In this document: positions 4,192 to 13,787 of the stretch, piece after piece
Numbering within the stretch: position 1 is the stretch's first letter
Layout: the number at the start of each line of letters is the position of its first letter
DNA from: Planctomycetia bacterium
Lineage (GTDB): Bacteria > Planctomycetota > Planctomycetia > Gemmatales > Gemmataceae
Length of the DNA: 35,258 nt
Direction of reading: 5' to 3'
Assembly (NCBI GenBank): GCA_005808665.1
Contig: SYLG01000066.1
Location: 1 to 35,258, forward strand
The notes under the pieces: generated by a model
The model's input: only the letters and a program-made list of their open reading frames with translations
Told to the model about the DNA's origin: nothing
Databases searched by the model: none
Position numbers and translations under genes: made by a program

Positions 4192-5247
4192 ATGCCTCGA
4201 ATCCTGAGTCCATGGACTTCGGACTCCGCGGGCGGCCGTGGTGGGCCGGAGATTCTTCGTTTTGGCAAAGAAATCCTTCTTGCCGAGGCCAATGCCTTGC
4301 GATTGGTGGCGGACCGGTTGGATGACCGGTTTGAATTTGCCGTGGAAATGGTTTTGGGAACGATCCAAATGGGCACGGGCCGGGTCCTTACCAGTGGGGT
4401 GGGAAAGTCGGCCGATGTTGCCCGAAAAATCACAGGCACTCTCAATTCCACTGGCACCCGCTCGACTTTTCTCGACCCGGTACAGGCTCTTCATGGCGAT
4501 TTGGGCCTGGTTCACCCCCATGATATTGCGATGCTTTTTTCCCACAGCGGGGAAACCGAGGAGATTGTCAGGCTATTGAGCCCCCTTTCAGACCTCTGCT
4601 CCGCCATCCTTGCGATCACGGGAAATGGGGGTTCCACCCTGGCGGTGCGATCGGAATTGGCCTTGGTGTATGGACCGCTTGACGAGGTTTGCCCTTTGGG
4701 TTTGGCCCCTAGTGCCAGTACGACCGCGATGTTGGCCCTTGGGGATGCGGTTGCGTTTTCGGTGAGTCGGGCCCGGGGTTTTGGCCCGGAAGATTTCGCA
4801 CGGTACCACCCGGCCGGGTCGCTTGGAAAAAAACTGGCCCGGGTCGAGCAGATGATGCGCCAAGGGCCGGATTGCCGGATTGCCCCGGAAACAAGCACCA
4901 TCCGCGAAGTCATGGTCCAGGGGAAAGCCAAAGGACGCCGTACCGGTGCGGTGATATTGACGGATTCCAGCGGGGTTCTTTGTGGCATCTTCACCGACAG
5001 TGATTTTGCCCGGCTGATCGCCAGGCAAGGGGAAGAATGGCTCGACCGGCCTGTTCATGAGGCGATGACAAAAACGCCGCTTGTAGCCAAGGCTGGAAGC
5101 CGGGTGGGTGAGGCGATGCAGCTCATGTCGGACCGGAAAATCAGTGAACTTCCGGTGGTCGATGCCAACCACAGGCCACTGGGAATCCTGGATATTACGG
5201 ACCTGATCGACATTGCCGGGGCCGCAGCCAAGTCCAGGGCAGCATAA
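4192..5247 (+). CDS. kdsD: Arabinose-5-phosphate isomerase (KpsF/GutQ family)
   Basis: A 351-residue cytoplasmic enzyme that converts ribulose 5-phosphate to arabinose 5-phosphate, the first committed precursor of KDO for lipopolysaccharide. An N-terminal SIS domain (about residues 40-195) has GVGKSADVARKI, the serine-rich FSHSGETEEI loop and PSASTTAMLALGDA. Two CBS repeats follow (about 215-345), including VLCGIFTDSDFARLI and LGILDITDLIDIA. This is the normal domain order and length. A strong AGGAGG at 4181-4186 stands five bases before the ATG and decides the start. It leads an operon with kdsC and the giant LptC/LptA-like protein, a synteny also known from the E. coli kdsD-kdsC-lptC-lptA-lptB cluster. 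Confidence 0.95.
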   Translation: MPRILSPWTSDSAGGRGGPEILRFGKEILLAEANALRLVADRLDDRFEFAVEMVLGTIQMGTGRVLTSGVGKSADVARKITGTLNSTGTRSTFLDPVQALHGDLGLVHPHDIAMLFSHSGETEEIVRLLSPLSDLCSAILAITGNGGSTLAVRSELALVYGPLDEVCPLGLAPSASTTAMLALGDAVAFSVSRARGFGPEDFARYHPAGSLGKKLARVEQMMRQGPDCRIAPETSTIREVMVQGKAKGRRTGAVILTDSSGVLCGIFTDSDFARLIARQGEEWLDRPVHEAMTKTPLVAKAGSRVGEAMQLMSDRKISELPVVDANHRPLGILDITDLIDIAGAAAKSRAA

Positions 5248-5266: not shown

Positions 5267-5779
5267 ATGACTCCCTTGGCAACCCTGTGCCGGAAGATCC
5301 GGCTGCTGGTCCTCGATGTGGATGGCGTCCTTACCCAGGGACACCTGATGCCGGCCGTAGGCACCCTCCACCATGAAACCAAGTGGTTTCATGTCCGGGA
5401 TGGTTTGGCCCTCAGGGTCTGGCAGGATGCTGGTGGGGAAGTGGCGGTCATTACGGGACGCGGCGGAGATTTGGTGGTGGCACGGTGCAGGGAACTTGGG
5501 ATAACCCGGCTCATTCAGGGTGCCAACCCCAAAACACCGGCGTTTTTGCAACTCCTGGCCGAGACCAACACGCCCCCCGAGGCTGTGTGTGCCATGGGCG
5601 ACGATTTGGCCGATTTGCCCCTTTTGCGGTGCGCCGGGCTGGGTGTGGCGGTGGCAGATGCCTGTCTCGATGCCAGGCTGGCGGCCAAAATCACCACCCG
5701 GCTGGGAGGCGGAATGGGGGCGGTGCGCGAGGTCGTGGAATTGATCATGAGGGAAAGGGGAACCTGGCCTACCGCTTAG
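5267..5779 (+). CDS. kdsC: KDO-8-phosphate phosphatase (KdsC-type HAD hydrolase)
   Basis: A 170-residue haloacid-dehalogenase phosphatase that releases KDO from KDO 8-phosphate. Motif I is DVDGVLTQG with the nucleophile and acid/base aspartates, motif II is VAVITGRGG, and motif IV is MGDDLADLPLL. The protein has the short, capless size of the family, which works as a tetramer. The ATG at 5267 was chosen because homologous sequence begins near TPLATLCRKI and a longer frame would run back into the kdsD stop. The gene starts 19 bases after kdsD ends; an AAGGA lies at the overlap, rather far from the ATG. The pairing with kdsD makes the pathway assignment strong. Confidence 0.93.
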   Translation: MTPLATLCRKIRLLVLDVDGVLTQGHLMPAVGTLHHETKWFHVRDGLALRVWQDAGGEVAVITGRGGDLVVARCRELGITRLIQGANPKTPAFLQLLAETNTPPEAVCAMGDDLADLPLLRCAGLGVAVADACLDARLAAKITTRLGGGMGAVREVVELIMRERGTWPTA

Positions 5780-5834: not shown

Positions 5835-8800
5835 GTGTGGACTCCGCGCAGGATAGCGATGCTCTTTGTACTGTTCGTCATGGCTTCGACGGCGTACACG
5901 GGCTATGCCATGATCCTTGGCCAGATCGACGGCTTGCCTCCCCTGCCCACCGCACTTTTGCCCCGGGACAAAGAGACGCTTCCTCCCTTGCCTCCCCGCC
6001 CCGCATCCAGGGTGGTTGCCAAGTTGCAACAAGCCTTTGGACAAGAATGCCCGGAAGCCCATCGCCAATTCAAAATTGAACTTTCCAGCCGCAACATGGT
6101 TTTGGCCTGGGACCACTTCCAGATCGAGCCCGATGGCAGGGTTTGCCTTACTCCCATCAGCGTCGCCATCCTCGAAAAGGACAAAGGAGATGGCCGAGGT
6201 CCTGAAATCAACAGCATCCGGGGTCAGGCGGCCTATTTGCGTTTCGACCGGCCGGTAACCCAAATTGCCGACATTGGTTCCCGGAAGATTCTGGGGGGGG
6301 AAATCCTGGGAAATGTCGAGGTAGTCAACAACCGGAGAACCGCGGCGAGGGACGATGATATTGTGTTGTATGTGCCCCAGGGGCCGGTCCACTATAGCGA
6401 ACCCAAAAAACTTATCTGGACAGACGATTCGATTCACCTTTCCGACCACCAGAGCAAACCCAAGCCCACAGAGGTTCGTGGCAAGGGCCTTCAAATTGAG
6501 CTGTTGGCCGAATCCAAGCCGGTGGCCAAGGGGGGACAAGCCACCACCAAACCCAGGCAGGATGTGGTAACCGGGGTCAGGCGCATCAAACTCAACTCGG
6601 CGGTTTCCATGCACATCCATGTTGCCGACGATGCGGGATTCATGGCGAAAGGCCCATCGGCAGGCAAGAAACCGGGAACCGGCTCCAAGGCTCATGTAGC
6701 CATCAAAACCCATGGCACCTTTGATTATGTTTTTGGACCCGATTCGGACATCGCCACTTTTCTTGCGCCCAAACTTGGTCCCAATTCCCTTACCCCCGCC
6801 GATGTCACCCTTACCAAACTTCATGATGATGTTGGTGCCGTCGATCAGCTCGTTTGTGAAAAACTCGTCCTTACCTTGCGGAAGCGGGGGCCACGAACCG
6901 CCCTTCCCGAAAAACTCCCTACCGGTCCGGACCAAGCCATCGAGATCACCACTGCCCTTGCCACCGGCAAGGAGATCATCATTACTTCGGATGCGGAAAA
7001 ACTCGAGGCCCACGCCAATGAACTGACCTTTGACAACCGCACGGGCAAAACCACCCTCAAGGGCGAACCCAACATGGTTGCCCTCATAGACGGCAATACG
7101 ATCTCCACCAAAACCCTTGAAATCACCCATCCCCGTGAGGCCCAACCGGTGGGAAAACCCCAACCGGGACCAACCATCCATGCACCCGGCCCGGGCACCA
7201 TTGAACTTCGGGTCGATAACAAAGTGGGTGAAAAAGGCGGGGACAAGCAAAAAAACGATAAAAAAGACCCCATTCAGGCAAAAGGGAAGACCCGTGCCGA
7301 GTGGAGCAAAAACCTATCTACCTCAACCGATGCGGAAAACGGCATGGACCTGCTTACCTTCCAGGGGAAGGCCAGGTTCTTTGATGAGGGTCAAAGCCTT
7401 CAGGCAGATACCCTCAAACTTTGGATCGGCGATGCCAAGGCGCCCTTAACTCCCGGAACACCCAAACCAAAGGCCGATGGTCCTGGTCCCGCTCTTGCCA
7501 CTTCGAATAAAACCAACCCGGAAGTTTCCCCCGCAAACAAACCAAAAGGCAAAAAAGAGATCCAGCGACTCGAAGCCATCGGTTCGGTCATTGCCAAAAG
7601 CCGTGAACTGCTTATTCAGGACACAGGAAGGCTTCTGATCTGGTTCCTCGATCCGCCACCAAATCCCCAAAAGGGCGAAGCCGTACCGTTGCCCGGGGCA
7701 GGGAAAGCCTTGCCTGGCGTCGCCAACCAAGGGGCCCTTGCCCCGAAAAATCCAGCCTCTAACCGGGGACCAGCCCTTGCTCCCGAGTCCAGGAATGACA
7801 AGCCTATCGAGATCTCGGCCAGGTCCATTGAGACTTGGGTCAATCGCCTCGATAACAAGGTGCAACTGGATCGCATCCGTACCGAAGGTCAGGTGGTCGT
7901 CCGTCAGGAATCCCCCAAACCCGGGGACAAGGGTGTCGATATTCGCGGGGAAACGCTGCAATTGTTCTGGTCCGAATGGGGAAGCAAACTCATTGTCGGA
8001 GGCGACCTTGCCCAACTCCGGATGGACCGGATTTTGATCGTGGGACCCGAAATTACCATTGATCAACTCACCAACAAGGTTTGGGTGGATGGCATCGGGG
8101 CGATGCAGATGGACAGTGCTACCACGCTTCAGGGGGTAAAACTCGCCAAAGCGATCCCTTTTGAGGTCCATTGGTCCAAGTCGATGCTTTTTTCCGGCAA
8201 ACACGCCGAGTTTACCGGCGACATCCAGGCCGAACAGGAAGAATCCAGACTAGCCAGCCAGGGGCTTCAGGTCTTTTTTGATACCCCCATTTCCCTGAAG
8301 GAAGGGACCAAACGGGACGCCTCCCCCAAGGTCGAGCATATCGTTTGCGATCGCCAGGTCCGGGTCGAGGAAACCATTCGCGAAAAGGACAAGTTGGTCC
8401 GCTTCCAAAGGATCGTGGCGGTAACCCTTTCGATGAATCGTCTGGAAAGGGAGGACCAGATTGGGTCCCCGCGCCCGCCTCCAACACCCACCCATCCGGC
8501 CCCCACCCGTGAAGCCAACGAGGTTAGGGCCACAGGCCCGGGCGAGGTCCGCATCCTTCAGAGGGGGGGAAACGATCCGTTCGAAACAAAACCCCCCGCC
8601 CCTGGGCAACCCGTTTCGGCAAATGGCCCCAAACCTGCCTCACAAAAACCTGGGGAGGAGGCCCAACTCAAGATGACCCACATCAGCTTCCTGAGGAGTA
8701 TGTATGCCAACAACCGCTCCAACACGGCGACCTTCCTGGAGGAGGTTCGGGTCCTCCATTTTCCTTGTGAAGATCCCAATGTGGAGGTGGAGCTTGAAAA

Positions 8801-9140
8801 TGTGTTGGACCGACTTCCCCCGGGGGCGATCTTTTTGCGTTGCGACCGGCTGGATGCTTTGAGCCGTGGTGAGGGGAAATCGGCTCGTCAGGATATGCGG
8901 GCCCGGGGTCGGGTCACAGTCCAGGCAAGGGAGTTTTCTGGCCGGGCCGAAATGGTCACCTATGAAGATGCCAAGGAGCAAGTGATTTTTCACGGTTCCG
9001 AAGGGGCCCCGGCCGTTTTGCTTCGCCAAGTCCGGGTAGGCGCACCCCCGGAAGAGATCCGGGCCCGCAAAATCACCTATTCCCGGGGAACCGGTCAATT
9101 CAAGATCGATGATGGGCAATGGCTTGGAGGGGGCACCTAA
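5835..9140 (+). CDS. Giant single-anchor LptC/LptA (OstA)-like envelope protein
   Basis: A 1101-residue protein with one N-terminal membrane segment (about residues 6-28) and a very long periplasmic part. The body alternates beta-rich stretches that read like OstA/LptA repeats with Pro/Lys/Gly-rich linkers (about 440-480, 540-570, 610-660 and 880-950). Examples are FQGKARFFDEGQSLQADTLK near 507, MRARGRVTVQAREFSGRAEM near the C-terminus, and the closing IRARKITYSRGTGQFKIDDG. LptC has one anchor and one such jelly-roll domain, and LptA has none and one. The start is GTG at 5835, with AGGAGGA at 5817-5823; an ATG eight codons later is the alternative. It follows kdsC by 55 bases in the place occupied by lptC-lptA in E. 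coli. A role as a lipopolysaccharide bridge is inferred; no lptB follows. Confidence 0.75.
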   Translation: MWTPRRIAMLFVLFVMASTAYTGYAMILGQIDGLPPLPTALLPRDKETLPPLPPRPASRVVAKLQQAFGQECPEAHRQFKIELSSRNMVLAWDHFQIEPDGRVCLTPISVAILEKDKGDGRGPEINSIRGQAAYLRFDRPVTQIADIGSRKILGGEILGNVEVVNNRRTAARDDDIVLYVPQGPVHYSEPKKLIWTDDSIHLSDHQSKPKPTEVRGKGLQIELLAESKPVAKGGQATTKPRQDVVTGVRRIKLNSAVSMHIHVADDAGFMAKGPSAGKKPGTGSKAHVAIKTHGTFDYVFGPDSDIATFLAPKLGPNSLTPADVTLTKLHDDVGAVDQLVCEKLVLTLRKRGPRTALPEKLPTGPDQAIEITTALATGKEIIITSDAEKLEAHANELTFDNRTGKTTLKGEPNMVALIDGNTISTKTLEITHPREAQPVGKPQPGPTIHAPGPGTIELRVDNKVGEKGGDKQKNDKKDPIQAKGKTRAEWSKNLSTSTDAENGMDLLTFQGKARFFDEGQSLQADTLKLWIGDAKAPLTPGTPKPKADGPGPALATSNKTNPEVSPANKPKGKKEIQRLEAIGSVIAKSRELLIQDTGRLLIWFLDPPPNPQKGEAVPLPGAGKALPGVANQGALAPKNPASNRGPALAPESRNDKPIEISARSIETWVNRLDNKVQLDRIRTEGQVVVRQESPKPGDKGVDIRGETLQLFWSEWGSKLIVGGDLAQLRMDRILIVGPEITIDQLTNKVWVDGIGAMQMDSATTLQGVKLAKAIPFEVHWSKSMLFSGKHAEFTGDIQAEQEESRLASQGLQVFFDTPISLKEGTKRDASPKVEHIVCDRQVRVEETIREKDKLVRFQRIVAVTLSMNRLEREDQIGSPRPPPTPTHPAPTREANEVRATGPGEVRILQRGGNDPFETKPPAPGQPVSANGPKPASQKPGEEAQLKMTHISFLRSMYANNRSNTATFLEEVRVLHFPCEDPNVEVELENVLDRLPPGAIFLRCDRLDALSRGEGKSARQDMRARGRVTVQAREFSGRAEMVTYEDAKEQVIFHGSEGAPAVLLRQVRVGAPPEEIRARKITYSRGTGQFKIDDGQWLGGGT

Positions 9141-9646: not shown

Positions 9647-10624
9647 ATGAATCGTTTTTTGCCTTATTTTCGCCCTTTTCAGGGCCTGATCCTGTTTGGG
9701 TTGGTCCTTGGTCCGATCGGTTTCACCCTGGCGGTGAACGGACAGGAGGATCCCGCCCAAAAAGCCAAAACCGCCACCAACGGGTTTACCCTTCCCAAAC
9801 TCTTTTCCTTTGCCAAAGAGGGAGAGAAAAAAACCACCCCCTTTCCCGGGGTCGAACATATCGAACGGACCACGAACACCCCAAGGCAACTCACCCAACA
9901 TCTGATTTTCCTCGATCCCAAAACCCCAAACCTCCGCATCCTTTCCACCCGCCCGGAACGGGAAGGAAATCATCCGCCTGGGACCACCAAATTGGAGACC
10001 ACCCGGGCTTTCCTGGAGCGGACCAAGGCCCACATTGCCATCAATGCCAACTTTTTTGATAACGGCACTGAAGCGAAAAAAAAGGGCATCACCCGATTGT
10101 TGGGTTTGGCCATGTCCGAGGGGAACTTTGTCTCCCCATGGAGTGCCGATAATTCCCAATTCATGGATGCCATTCACTTTTCCCCACAGGGGGACATTCG
10201 TTTTCTGGAACGCCCGACAGACATTGGCGATGGCTATGCCACGCTACCTGCCACGGACCTGTATACGGCGGTAACGGGTCATGCCCGGTTGCTCCGGGCC
10301 GGAGTGATTGCCGTAAAACCTGGGGCCGATCCCAACAAGGACCTCAACCCCCGAACCGCCATTGGCCAGCACCGTGACGGGCGCCTTGTTCTTTTTGTGG
10401 TGGATGGACGAAGGCCTGGAGGCAGCCTGGGAATGGCCACCCACGAAGTGGCCCAATTCCTCCGGGATAGGGATGTGGTGGATGCCATCCAACTCGATGG
10501 AGGCGGCAGTACCACCCTGGCCCTGGGAGATGGCAAAGGCAAAGGGCGGGTGATCAACAAACCCTCGGACTTTACTGAACGAAAGGTCGGGAACAATTTA
10601 GCCTTCTCCTTTGGGAAGGAGTAA
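9647..10624 (+). CDS. Secreted phosphodiester glycosidase family protein (NAGPA/DUF2233)
   Basis: A 325-residue protein with an N-terminal signal segment (FQGLILFGLVLGPIGFTLAV) and then a linker of about 40 residues. The NAGPA-type domain covers about 85-325: AHIAINANFFDNG, NPRTAIGQ, a catalytic-region stretch VVDGRRPGGSLGM, and QLDGGGSTTLAL (D284 to S288), closing with VGNNLAFSF. Members cleave phosphodiester-linked sugars, such as the uncovering enzyme acting on mannose 6-phosphate; the bacterial substrates are mostly unknown cell-surface glycans. GGAGG at 9635-9639 stands seven bases before the ATG. The gene is alone on its strand and converges on the SMR gene. Confidence 0.88.
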   Translation: MNRFLPYFRPFQGLILFGLVLGPIGFTLAVNGQEDPAQKAKTATNGFTLPKLFSFAKEGEKKTTPFPGVEHIERTTNTPRQLTQHLIFLDPKTPNLRILSTRPEREGNHPPGTTKLETTRAFLERTKAHIAINANFFDNGTEAKKKGITRLLGLAMSEGNFVSPWSADNSQFMDAIHFSPQGDIRFLERPTDIGDGYATLPATDLYTAVTGHARLLRAGVIAVKPGADPNKDLNPRTAIGQHRDGRLVLFVVDGRRPGGSLGMATHEVAQFLRDRDVVDAIQLDGGGSTTLALGDGKGKGRVINKPSDFTERKVGNNLAFSFGKE

Positions 10625-11056: not shown

Positions 11057-12847
11057 TCAGGCAGCAAGGGCCTCCCTTGGGGCAGGAATGTCAAGTGCTG
11101 CCGAAAGGCAAAGAAGAATGACCCTTTCCGATTCTGTCCAGACCTGATCCTGGCGGATGAGAACAGAACAGGCATCGACCAACCGGTGCCGCAATCCTTC
11201 GGGCGCCAAGGCCAGGACACTCAGGTATTTCCTGTCGGGAACGGAAGTCAAAACGGCGGGCAGGGGTTCCGCTGGATGCACCTTGGTCAATTGTTGAATG
11301 GCCTTTTTCCAACCTGTTTCAAGGGCCATGCCAGACATCCCCCCGGCTTTGGCCACCGAGCCCAAAACATGAATGGCAGCCGCATACCGGGGGGCTCCTT
11401 TCCCCATGGCCATTTTTTGCCTGGGGTCCAAAAGCCAAAGGGAAAGAACCTGCCGGAAACAGGCATTGAAAAGGTCGGTTGGCGGGGAACTTTGCTCAAG
11501 CTTTTGGAACATGGCATTTTTTTGCCCAAGGGAAAATTGCCTGATCCAGGGGGCCAGCAGGGCCATTTGCCTGGCCTTTTCCAAGGGTGTCCAATGGATG
11601 GATGCTCCTGCCAAAGGGGAAACGCCCGCCACGGAAGCCAAGGGGACCCCCGCCAGGGATTGCGCAAGGACAGCAGCATCCAGGGCCGATTCTATCCTGG
11701 CATTTTCCCTTTTTGGCTTGGGAACGGGTGGTGGGTTATCCCCATTTCCCGCCAAACCTTTTATCAATTCACTTGAAATGGCTCCCTCCCCGCGGGCCAA
11801 ATCCTGAGCATTATCCTGATTGGCCCTGAGAAACTGACCATCCCAATGGGGATCAATGCGGCGAATTCGCTCCCTTAGGGGTGGGTGGGAATCCAGCGAC
11901 AAAAAACTTGACCGTTTGAGGCCACAGGCAAAAAACATATGGTTCACCTCGGTCGCCTCGGCGGACCGGATCACCCCGTGATCGGCAAAGCCCCCGATCT
12001 TTTTGAGGGCTCCGGCGATGCCATCAGGATTTCGGGTGAATTGGACCGCACTGGCATCGGCCAGAAATTCCCGCTGGCGGCTGATGGCAGCCTGAATCAG
12101 CCGGGCGAAAAATGTCCCCACGAGTCCCAGGATCCACAACGCAATTCCAAAAAGGAAAAGCCCAAAAACAAGACCGGCGGCACCATCTTTGCCCTTTCCA
12201 GAGCTGCTATTGGACCCTGAGGACATCCGGACATTGCCCAACAGCCGCACCAGGATTTCGCCAAAAAAACTCAACACCACCAGACCAAATATCAGCCCCA
12301 TCAGCCGGATGTTCAATCGCATGTCCCCATTCAGGATGTGACTGTATTCGTGGGCTATGACCCCTTGCAGTTCATCGCGACTCAAAGTTTCAATACAACC
12401 CCGGGTGACTCCGATCACGGCATCACTGGGCGAATATCCCGCCGCAAAGGCATTGATCCCCGATTCCTCAAGGAGATACACAGGGGGTACGGAGATGCCC
12501 GCAGCAAGGGCGATCTCCTCGACTATGTTGAGCAACCTCCTTTGGGTGGGGTCAAGGTCTCCTCCGGGATGAAGCAAAACTCCCCCCAGTGATTCCGCAA
12601 CGCTTTTGCCTCCACCAAACGAGAGCTGAACCGTTCGCACCAGCGATCCACCGCCAATGACAAGGACAAAAAAGAGGGCTATTCCGACAGATGATACCCA
12701 ATAGGCAGGGTCCTGATGGCGGTCCTTGAAGCCTAACCAAAGGGCCACCTCGAACAGGCCGACAATCACCACCATGGCCGAAGCCAAAAGGACAAGCAGC
12801 CATGCTGTTCGCCCCCGGGCCTGGTCTTGATGGTGAAAGAAATTCAT
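11057..12847 (-). CDS. HtpX-like M48 zinc metalloprotease with long C-terminal extension
   Basis: A 596-residue membrane protease. Two N-terminal membrane segments (about 15-35 and 50-72) are followed by the catalytic domain with HEYSH at 166-170 and the third zinc ligand at E260 ([12 protein letters not shown]). Two more hydrophobic segments lie at about 182-200 and 225-250. HtpX itself is about 290 residues; here about 260 extra residues follow the catalytic domain (after [18 protein letters not shown]), ending in a helical stretch ([20 protein letters not shown]) that resembles TerB-like domains seen in some M48 proteins. The upstream neighbour is a lemA gene, a frequent partner of htpX. 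The role is inferred as membrane-protein quality control. Confidence 0.9.
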
Positions 12848-12898: not shown

Positions 12899-13522
12899 TT
12901 AAAACTTGACCTGGACGGCCTCGCGATCCGATGGGTTTTCAAGCTCGAACAGGCTGGCGGGATAGAAGCCAAACATCCCGGCAAACACCAAAGCGGGAAA
13001 ACCCTCACGGTAGGTGTTGTAATCCGTGACTTGGTCGTTGAAGCCCTGGCGGGCAAAGGCGATACGGTTTTCCGTGGAAGAAAGTTCCTCTTGCAGAGTG
13101 GCCATGTTCTGGTTGGCTTTGAGGTCGGGATAGGCTTCCGCCAGGGCAAACAATTTGTCAAGGCCCGCCATGAGTTGGCCCTCGGCTACGGCCAATTGCT
13201 TCATGGATTCTGGCTGGCCTGGATTGGCGGCAACTTTGCTGGTAAGGTTCGCCGCAGTGTTTCTTGCAGAAATCACCGCCTCAAGGGTTCCCCTTTCATG
13301 GGCCATGTAACCCTTCACGGTTTCGACAAGATTGGGAATCAGGTCATGACGGCGTTTGAGTTGAACATCGATTTGGCTAAAGCCGTTCTTGTAACGATTT
13401 CGTTTGGTAACCAGATTATTGTAAACGGCGATCGAATAAAGGATCAGGATACCAACAAAAACGGCCAATCCAATGAGGACGATCATCCATGGGGATAGAT
13501 CAGGGCCCGCTTGTCCGAGCAT
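12899..13522 (-). CDS. lemA: LemA family membrane protein
   Basis: A 207-residue protein with one membrane segment (about 12-34, MIVLIGLAVFVGILILYSIA) and then the LemA four-helix domain: YNNLVTKRNRYKNGFSQIDV, the RRHDLIPNLVETVKGYMAHE helix, and the closing STENRIAFARQGFNDQV. The start was set at the ATG at 13522, preceded by AAAGGAG at nine bases; a longer frame back to 13615 would add a tail with no leader character. The gene lies 51 bases upstream of the M48 protease, a common LemA-HtpX arrangement. LemA function is not settled; a scaffold or envelope-stress role is suggested by context. Confidence 0.92.
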   Translation of the reverse strand: MLGQAGPDLSPWMIVLIGLAVFVGILILYSIAVYNNLVTKRNRYKNGFSQIDVQLKRRHDLIPNLVETVKGYMAHERGTLEAVISARNTAANLTSKVAANPGQPESMKQLAVAEGQLMAGLDKLFALAEAYPDLKANQNMATLQEELSSTENRIAFARQGFNDQVTDYNTYREGFPALVFAGMFGFYPASLFELENPSDREAVQVKF

Positions 13523-13787
13523 GGAAACAGACTCCTTTGGGTAAATGGGTCCAGGGGATGCGGACCAAATGGCCATAGTCCCTGGGAAACCCAACGACCA
13601 TGGGCTTCTGTTCACAGTTTACCATGTTTGCCCAAAAGTGGGTAATTTCTCCTCCCCTGCCATGCCAAAACGGGTACGGTTGCACGAACCCAAAAGGTCA
13701 ACTAAAATGCAAGGAACCCGTGATCGGGTCCCGAAGGCCTTCTTTTCTTTGGCCTTTTTGCAATCTCCATTTTCAGGGAGTATTTCC

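Follow-up and report, generated by a model that had tools for sequence, protein, structure and literature searches.

The window, by which we mean the whole 35,258-nt stretch of DNA that was analysed, contains a giant open reading frame at 5835-9140 on the forward strand, which begins with a GTG codon and encodes 1101 amino acids. Pfam, profile and predicted-structure evidence point to a fused LptC-LptA-like bridge protein. Immediately upstream lie kdsD (4192-5247, +), encoding arabinose-5-phosphate isomerase with a SIS and two CBS domains, and kdsC (5267-5779, +), encoding KDO-8-phosphate phosphatase. KdsD matches the KpsF/GutQ model TIGR00393 above its cut-off and is the first gene of the conserved neighbourhood, and KdsC matches the YrbI model TIGR01670, also above cut-off. 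The list of open reading frames started kdsC at a TTG at 5213; starting it at the ATG at 5267 removes its overlap with kdsD. The sequence-only reading had placed a single 1101-residue protein after kdsD-kdsC, and this was borne out, since the frame is present and both upstream genes match their TIGR models. A protein with a NAGPA (phosphodiester glycosidase) domain is encoded directly 3' of the fused gene (9647-10624, +). On the reverse strand of the window, genes for an M48 peptidase (11057-12847) and LemA (12899-13615) neighbour each other, and at 654-2321 there is a second LemA, accompanied by a GIDE (E3 ligase-like) domain.

The gene order kdsD-kdsC-fused gene is kept across the class and the phylum in the neighbourhoods that were compared, with giant and short fused forms alike sitting after kdsD-kdsC. 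In one genome the slot after kdsD-kdsC is taken by a stand-alone LptC of 178 aa. None of the neighbourhoods examined has lptB beside the fused gene, which is the arrangement in E. coli.

Homologues of the giant protein occur across the class, and most are approximately 1000-1400 aa long. A single-sequence search of relatives found orthologues in 39 of 41 genomes, counting the window's own. In a 199-genome sample of the phylum, a profile matched all 12 class members, including one that the single-sequence search had overlooked. The named relatives of the locus are for the most part metagenome-assembled genomes of Gemmataceae/Planctomycetota, which identifies the window as planctomycete DNA. The gene is under strong purifying selection, with dN/dS values of 0.085 and 0.067 relative to two congeners. 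Together, the class-wide homologues and the dN/dS values indicate that the giant frame is a real gene.

Domains and predicted fold of the giant protein

Residues 4-31 (5844-5927, +) form a predicted membrane-anchor helix that is hydrophobic and conserved, with the motif MWTPRR... LGxIDGLPPLP recognizable in the orthologue alignment. The whole-chain predicted model has no other helix of membrane-spanning length, in agreement with the single anchor that had been proposed from the sequence. In the same model, pLDDT falls below 50 at residues 43-56, 228-242, 271-282, 353-367, 436-441, 462-484, 536-572, 609-654, 874-891 and 912-942. By sequence composition and the model, three of these regions are predicted to be disordered linkers: a Pro/Lys-rich one at 536-572 (7440-7550, +), a Pro/Ala-rich one at 609-654 (7659-7796, +) and a Pro-rich one at 912-942 (8568-8660, +). 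The sequence-only reading had described many OstA-like stretches separated by disordered linkers. Both elements are present, but they are not arranged as well-separated beads; the strands are nearly continuous, and Pro/Lys-rich stretches are inserted between them.

PF03968 (LptD_N, the LptA fold) scores 29.5 bits in the giant protein (cut-off 20.4; E 9.7e-7), with its best stretch at residues 1013-1084. The same family is matched in 20 of the 21 members of the orthologue alignment, so the OstA-like content noted from the sequence exceeds chance. PF06835 (LptC) has no Pfam match in the giant itself; it is found in 2 of the 21 orthologues, and one of these two matches corresponds to residues ~185-225 of the giant. 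Searching NCBIfam with the giant protein gave no match, and sequence searches of solved structures, with either the giant protein or a diverse orthologue profile, gave nothing useful. No AsmA, DUF748 or YhdP family was found in the giant at E <= 10 with a Pfam library that does detect one such frame beside lptF/G.

A whole-chain AlphaFold model built on 20 sequences consists of the anchor helix followed by ~62 beta strands and low-confidence Pro/Lys-rich insertions. Its mean pLDDT is 73 and its pTM 0.52, a value that does not fix the overall shape or the continuity and length of a groove. A separate model of residues 56-460 reached a pLDDT of 83 and a pTM of 0.82. When aligned by profile with the LptC domain of short fused relatives, the first jelly-roll segment (residues 79-225; 6069-6509, +) emerges as the LptC-like unit, and the PF06835 matches in orthologues and the predicted strands point the same way. 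It is followed by a predicted LptA-like jelly-roll segment at residues 245-458 (6567-7208, +), assigned from the separate model and its fold matches, and by a linker-broken middle beta segment at residues 486-800 (7290-8234, +), for which a jelly-roll is suggested by the whole-chain model only. The last segment, residues 801-1096 (8235-9122, +), is an LptA/LptD-N-like jelly-roll according to PF03968 and fold matches.

Residues 801-1096 matched the solved structures of LptD-N (Z 14.6), LptH (Z 13.4), LptA (Z 13.4, rmsd 2.2 over 117 residues) and LptC (Z 10.7), and unrelated rows in that search scored Z 8.4 and lower. In the separate model, residues ~265-460 matched the LptD N-domain (Z 13.1-13.3), LptA 2r1a (Z 12.7), LptH 4uu4 (Z 12.1) and LptC (Z 10.3). 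The jelly-roll structure anticipated by the sequence-only reading is thus recovered in two predicted models, in which the LptA/LptC-type fold is present at two independent places of the giant, 801-1096 (Z 13-14.6) and ~265-460 (Z 12-13). LptA has 16 strands. By strand count, a modelled chain of ~62 would come close to four LptA/LptC-sized units. Porin rows in the fold searches were set aside as general beta similarity, and chorein-domain proteins among the top rows from the viral library were taken to have a bridge-like shape in common with the giant, not kinship.

Fused relatives, partner genes and the search for separate lptC and lptA

PF06835 has matches in 41 of the 199 sampled phylum genomes, and 34 of the 41 lie in open frames of at least 500 codons, a count that is approximate because the frames run from stop to stop and need not coincide with annotated genes. 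The clearest fusions are short forms of 642-667 aa with a hydrophobic N-terminus, which combine PF06835 (E as low as 5.6e-19) and up to three PF03968 stretches in one frame. In the frames of family f49 (eight genomes), which are 652-669 codons long, LptC scores between E 1e-16 and 7e-20 and LptD_N occurs in as many as three stretches, and a relative of 1134 aa carries LptC (E 1.5e-16) and PF03968 together. An hhalign comparison of the giant with a short fused form gave 98.7% probability and E 1.5e-16 over 468 columns, and from the LptC domain on the two are collinear. Against solved structures, the profile of the short forms found LptA at E 7.5e-7 and, weakly, LptC at E 0.26. From these comparisons, the LptC-LptA fusion does not look peculiar to the window locus and appears to be widespread in Planctomycetota. 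Two of the short-form genomes have a frame of 610-648 codons after the fused gene (L147:6039-7982 and L148:6073-7902); the one in L147 has GDPD and HEAT-repeat domains.

The fused form is not universal. Small LptA-like frames of 169-248 codons occur in other planctomycete lineages, and in one of these (G182) a 522-codon frame that carries LptC coexists with a separate LptA-like frame of 225 codons. Since some lineages have small frames of LptA and LptC size, the phylum is mixed.

The window's own genome also encodes LptB, two LptF/G proteins and a relative of LptD, which are the partners that a bridge protein had been expected to have. All of them lie at loci other than that of the fused gene. 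LptB (L077:4706-5863, G000:C167; 386 codons) was found above cut-off, and LptF/G proteins are present in 41 of 41 genomes. Pfam is blind to the LptD relative (L078:5969-9730, G000:C52; 1254 codons) at E 0.01. PF04453 detects LptD in 8 of 41 genomes, and a profile made from six of those detects it in 40 of 41, the window's own genome included. The LptB frame apparently has a C-terminal extension of ~100 residues past the usual 240. The LptD relative seemingly has two OstA-like stretches ahead of the barrel, with a Pro-rich region of ~200 residues between them. Directly upstream of one LptF/G frame (L079:7819-9138), and overlapping it, is an AsmA/DUF748/YhdP-like frame of 1092 codons (L079:4670-7945, G000:C93). 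It is a possible second lipid bridge beside the LPS transporter.

Separate lptC and lptA genes elsewhere in the genome would have spoken against a fusion. At E <= 0.001, PF06835 found no separate lptC in the window's own genome, and its sole match among the 41 relatives is inside the giant protein. At E <= 10, PF03968 found in the own genome the giant (E 0.2), LptD and one chance-level match in a 2851-codon frame. At the default threshold, the genome-scale search overlooks even the giant because E is calculated per genome. Since the giant itself scores E 0.2, a diverged small lptA could escape PF03968 in this genome. The picture is clearer in f49, where every PF06835 or PF03968 match falls in a fused or LptD-sized frame; separate lptC and lptA are therefore lacking in a family for which the search has proved sensitive. 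Separate genes were thus detected neither in the own genome, with limited sensitivity, nor in f49, with sensitivity shown.

A proposed single-chain bridge and its alternatives

In E. coli, LptC and LptA are small proteins that join to carry lipopolysaccharide between the two membranes. We consider it very probable that in the giant LptC and several LptA units have been naturally fused in frame, and that this one chain would make up the LPS bridge of the periplasm. Computation gives the fusion reading good support: there is one frame and it is conserved, the fold is seen in two parts of the chain, clear fusions are homologous to it, the gene follows kdsD-kdsC and the partner genes are present. 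In the proposed mechanism, the one N-terminal helix would anchor the giant in the inner membrane, and the first jelly-roll would stand in for LptC on LptB2FG. The later jelly-roll segments, approximately three LptA-equivalents, may line up into an uninterrupted hydrophobic groove that spans the periplasm. At the C-terminus, the jelly-roll that most resembles LptA and LptD-N could then dock edge-to-edge on the N-domain of the planctomycete LptD, and ATP-driven loading would push LPS, the presumed cargo, along the groove. We infer the continuous groove, the docking at both ends, the LPS cargo and a stoichiometry of one chain per bridge. A further proposal, that Planctomycetota have largely shifted to a covalent bridge of LptC plus a fixed set of approximately three LptA units, its stoichiometry being genetically set, seems to us slightly favoured.

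The main rival is that the giant replaces LptC only, as a lengthened LptC carrying additional jelly-rolls, and that diverged separate LptA proteins or extra copies complete the bridge, or that the chain oligomerises. Other planctomycete lineages do have separate LptA-like frames, G182 has one in addition to its LptC-bearing frame, and Pfam could overlook a small lptA in the own genome. However, the f49 matches are all accounted for by fused or LptD-sized frames, and in the own genome the search at E <= 10 adds just LptD and one chance-level frame, so we regard a long LptC with an unseen LptA as rather unlikely.

Less likely again is that the single-chain bridge is built of jelly-rolls for another lipid or glycolipid, such as a phospholipid or hopanoid, in an AsmA/TamB-like role. 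The whole chain has a weak likeness to bridge-like lipid transfer proteins of eukaryotes and viruses (LPD-3 and chorein-domain proteins), and an AsmA/DUF748-like gene does adjoin one LptF/G gene in the own genome. In the giant itself, though, Pfam gives LptD_N and no AsmA-type family, and LptA, LptD and LptC head the fold matches. Another cargo is made less likely by the KDO-gene neighbourhood, as the gene comes after two KDO-synthesis genes throughout the phylum. We find it scarcely credible that the giant is an unrelated large beta protein of the surface or periplasm, an adhesin or Rhs-like, that follows kdsC by chance. Teneurin and Rhs-type shells were the top Foldseek rows by E-value, but their TM of ~0.05 and rmsd of ~40 mean that general beta content alone is in common, and the conserved synteny and the Pfam, profile and fold evidence contradict such an origin.

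The Lpt system and each of the domain families are already known, and we found no description of a single-chain LptC-LptA fusion in the open-access full texts searched. How many LptA copies make up the bridge of E. coli has yet to be established (PMC10094684). If the preferred reading of an LptC-LptA fusion is true, a natural one-chain bridge would fix the number, and a construct that cannot come apart or slip register would be useful for structural work. A broad survey with E. coli-anchored profiles found the planctomycete Lpt system to be largely reduced (PMC8871954). In Planctopirus limnophila, however, the genes for lipid A are essential (PMC10632474), and LptD was present in all planctomycete genomes published by the time of an earlier study (PMC3422733). 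The discrepancy may arise because lptC and lptA are fused and diverged rather than lost, which, if true, would explain the "largely reduced" result.

Comparison with known systems

The giant resembles LptC (PF06835), as known from the LptB2FGC complexes of E. coli, Vibrio and Enterobacter, in having a single predicted N-terminal membrane helix followed by a jelly-roll and in being encoded right after kdsD-kdsC. It differs in running on, in one chain, into several more jelly-roll segments, and Pfam sees LptC only in its relatives. With LptA/LptH (YhbN; PF03968) it has in common the jelly-roll fold, the Pfam LptD_N family and the place after lptC. LptA/LptH is free, oligomerising and periplasmic, whereas the giant would be several fused, anchored units with Pro/Lys-rich insertions. 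The N-terminal domain of LptD is the top structural match of the giant's predicted C-terminal segment; unlike LptD, the giant has no outer-membrane barrel, and LptD has a gene of its own elsewhere in the genome. By analogy, a single long beta groove with its anchor in one of the membranes, as proposed for the giant, would also liken it to VPS13/LPD-3 and AsmA/TamB/YhdP, although the domain families differ and the giant's matches to those proteins are weak.
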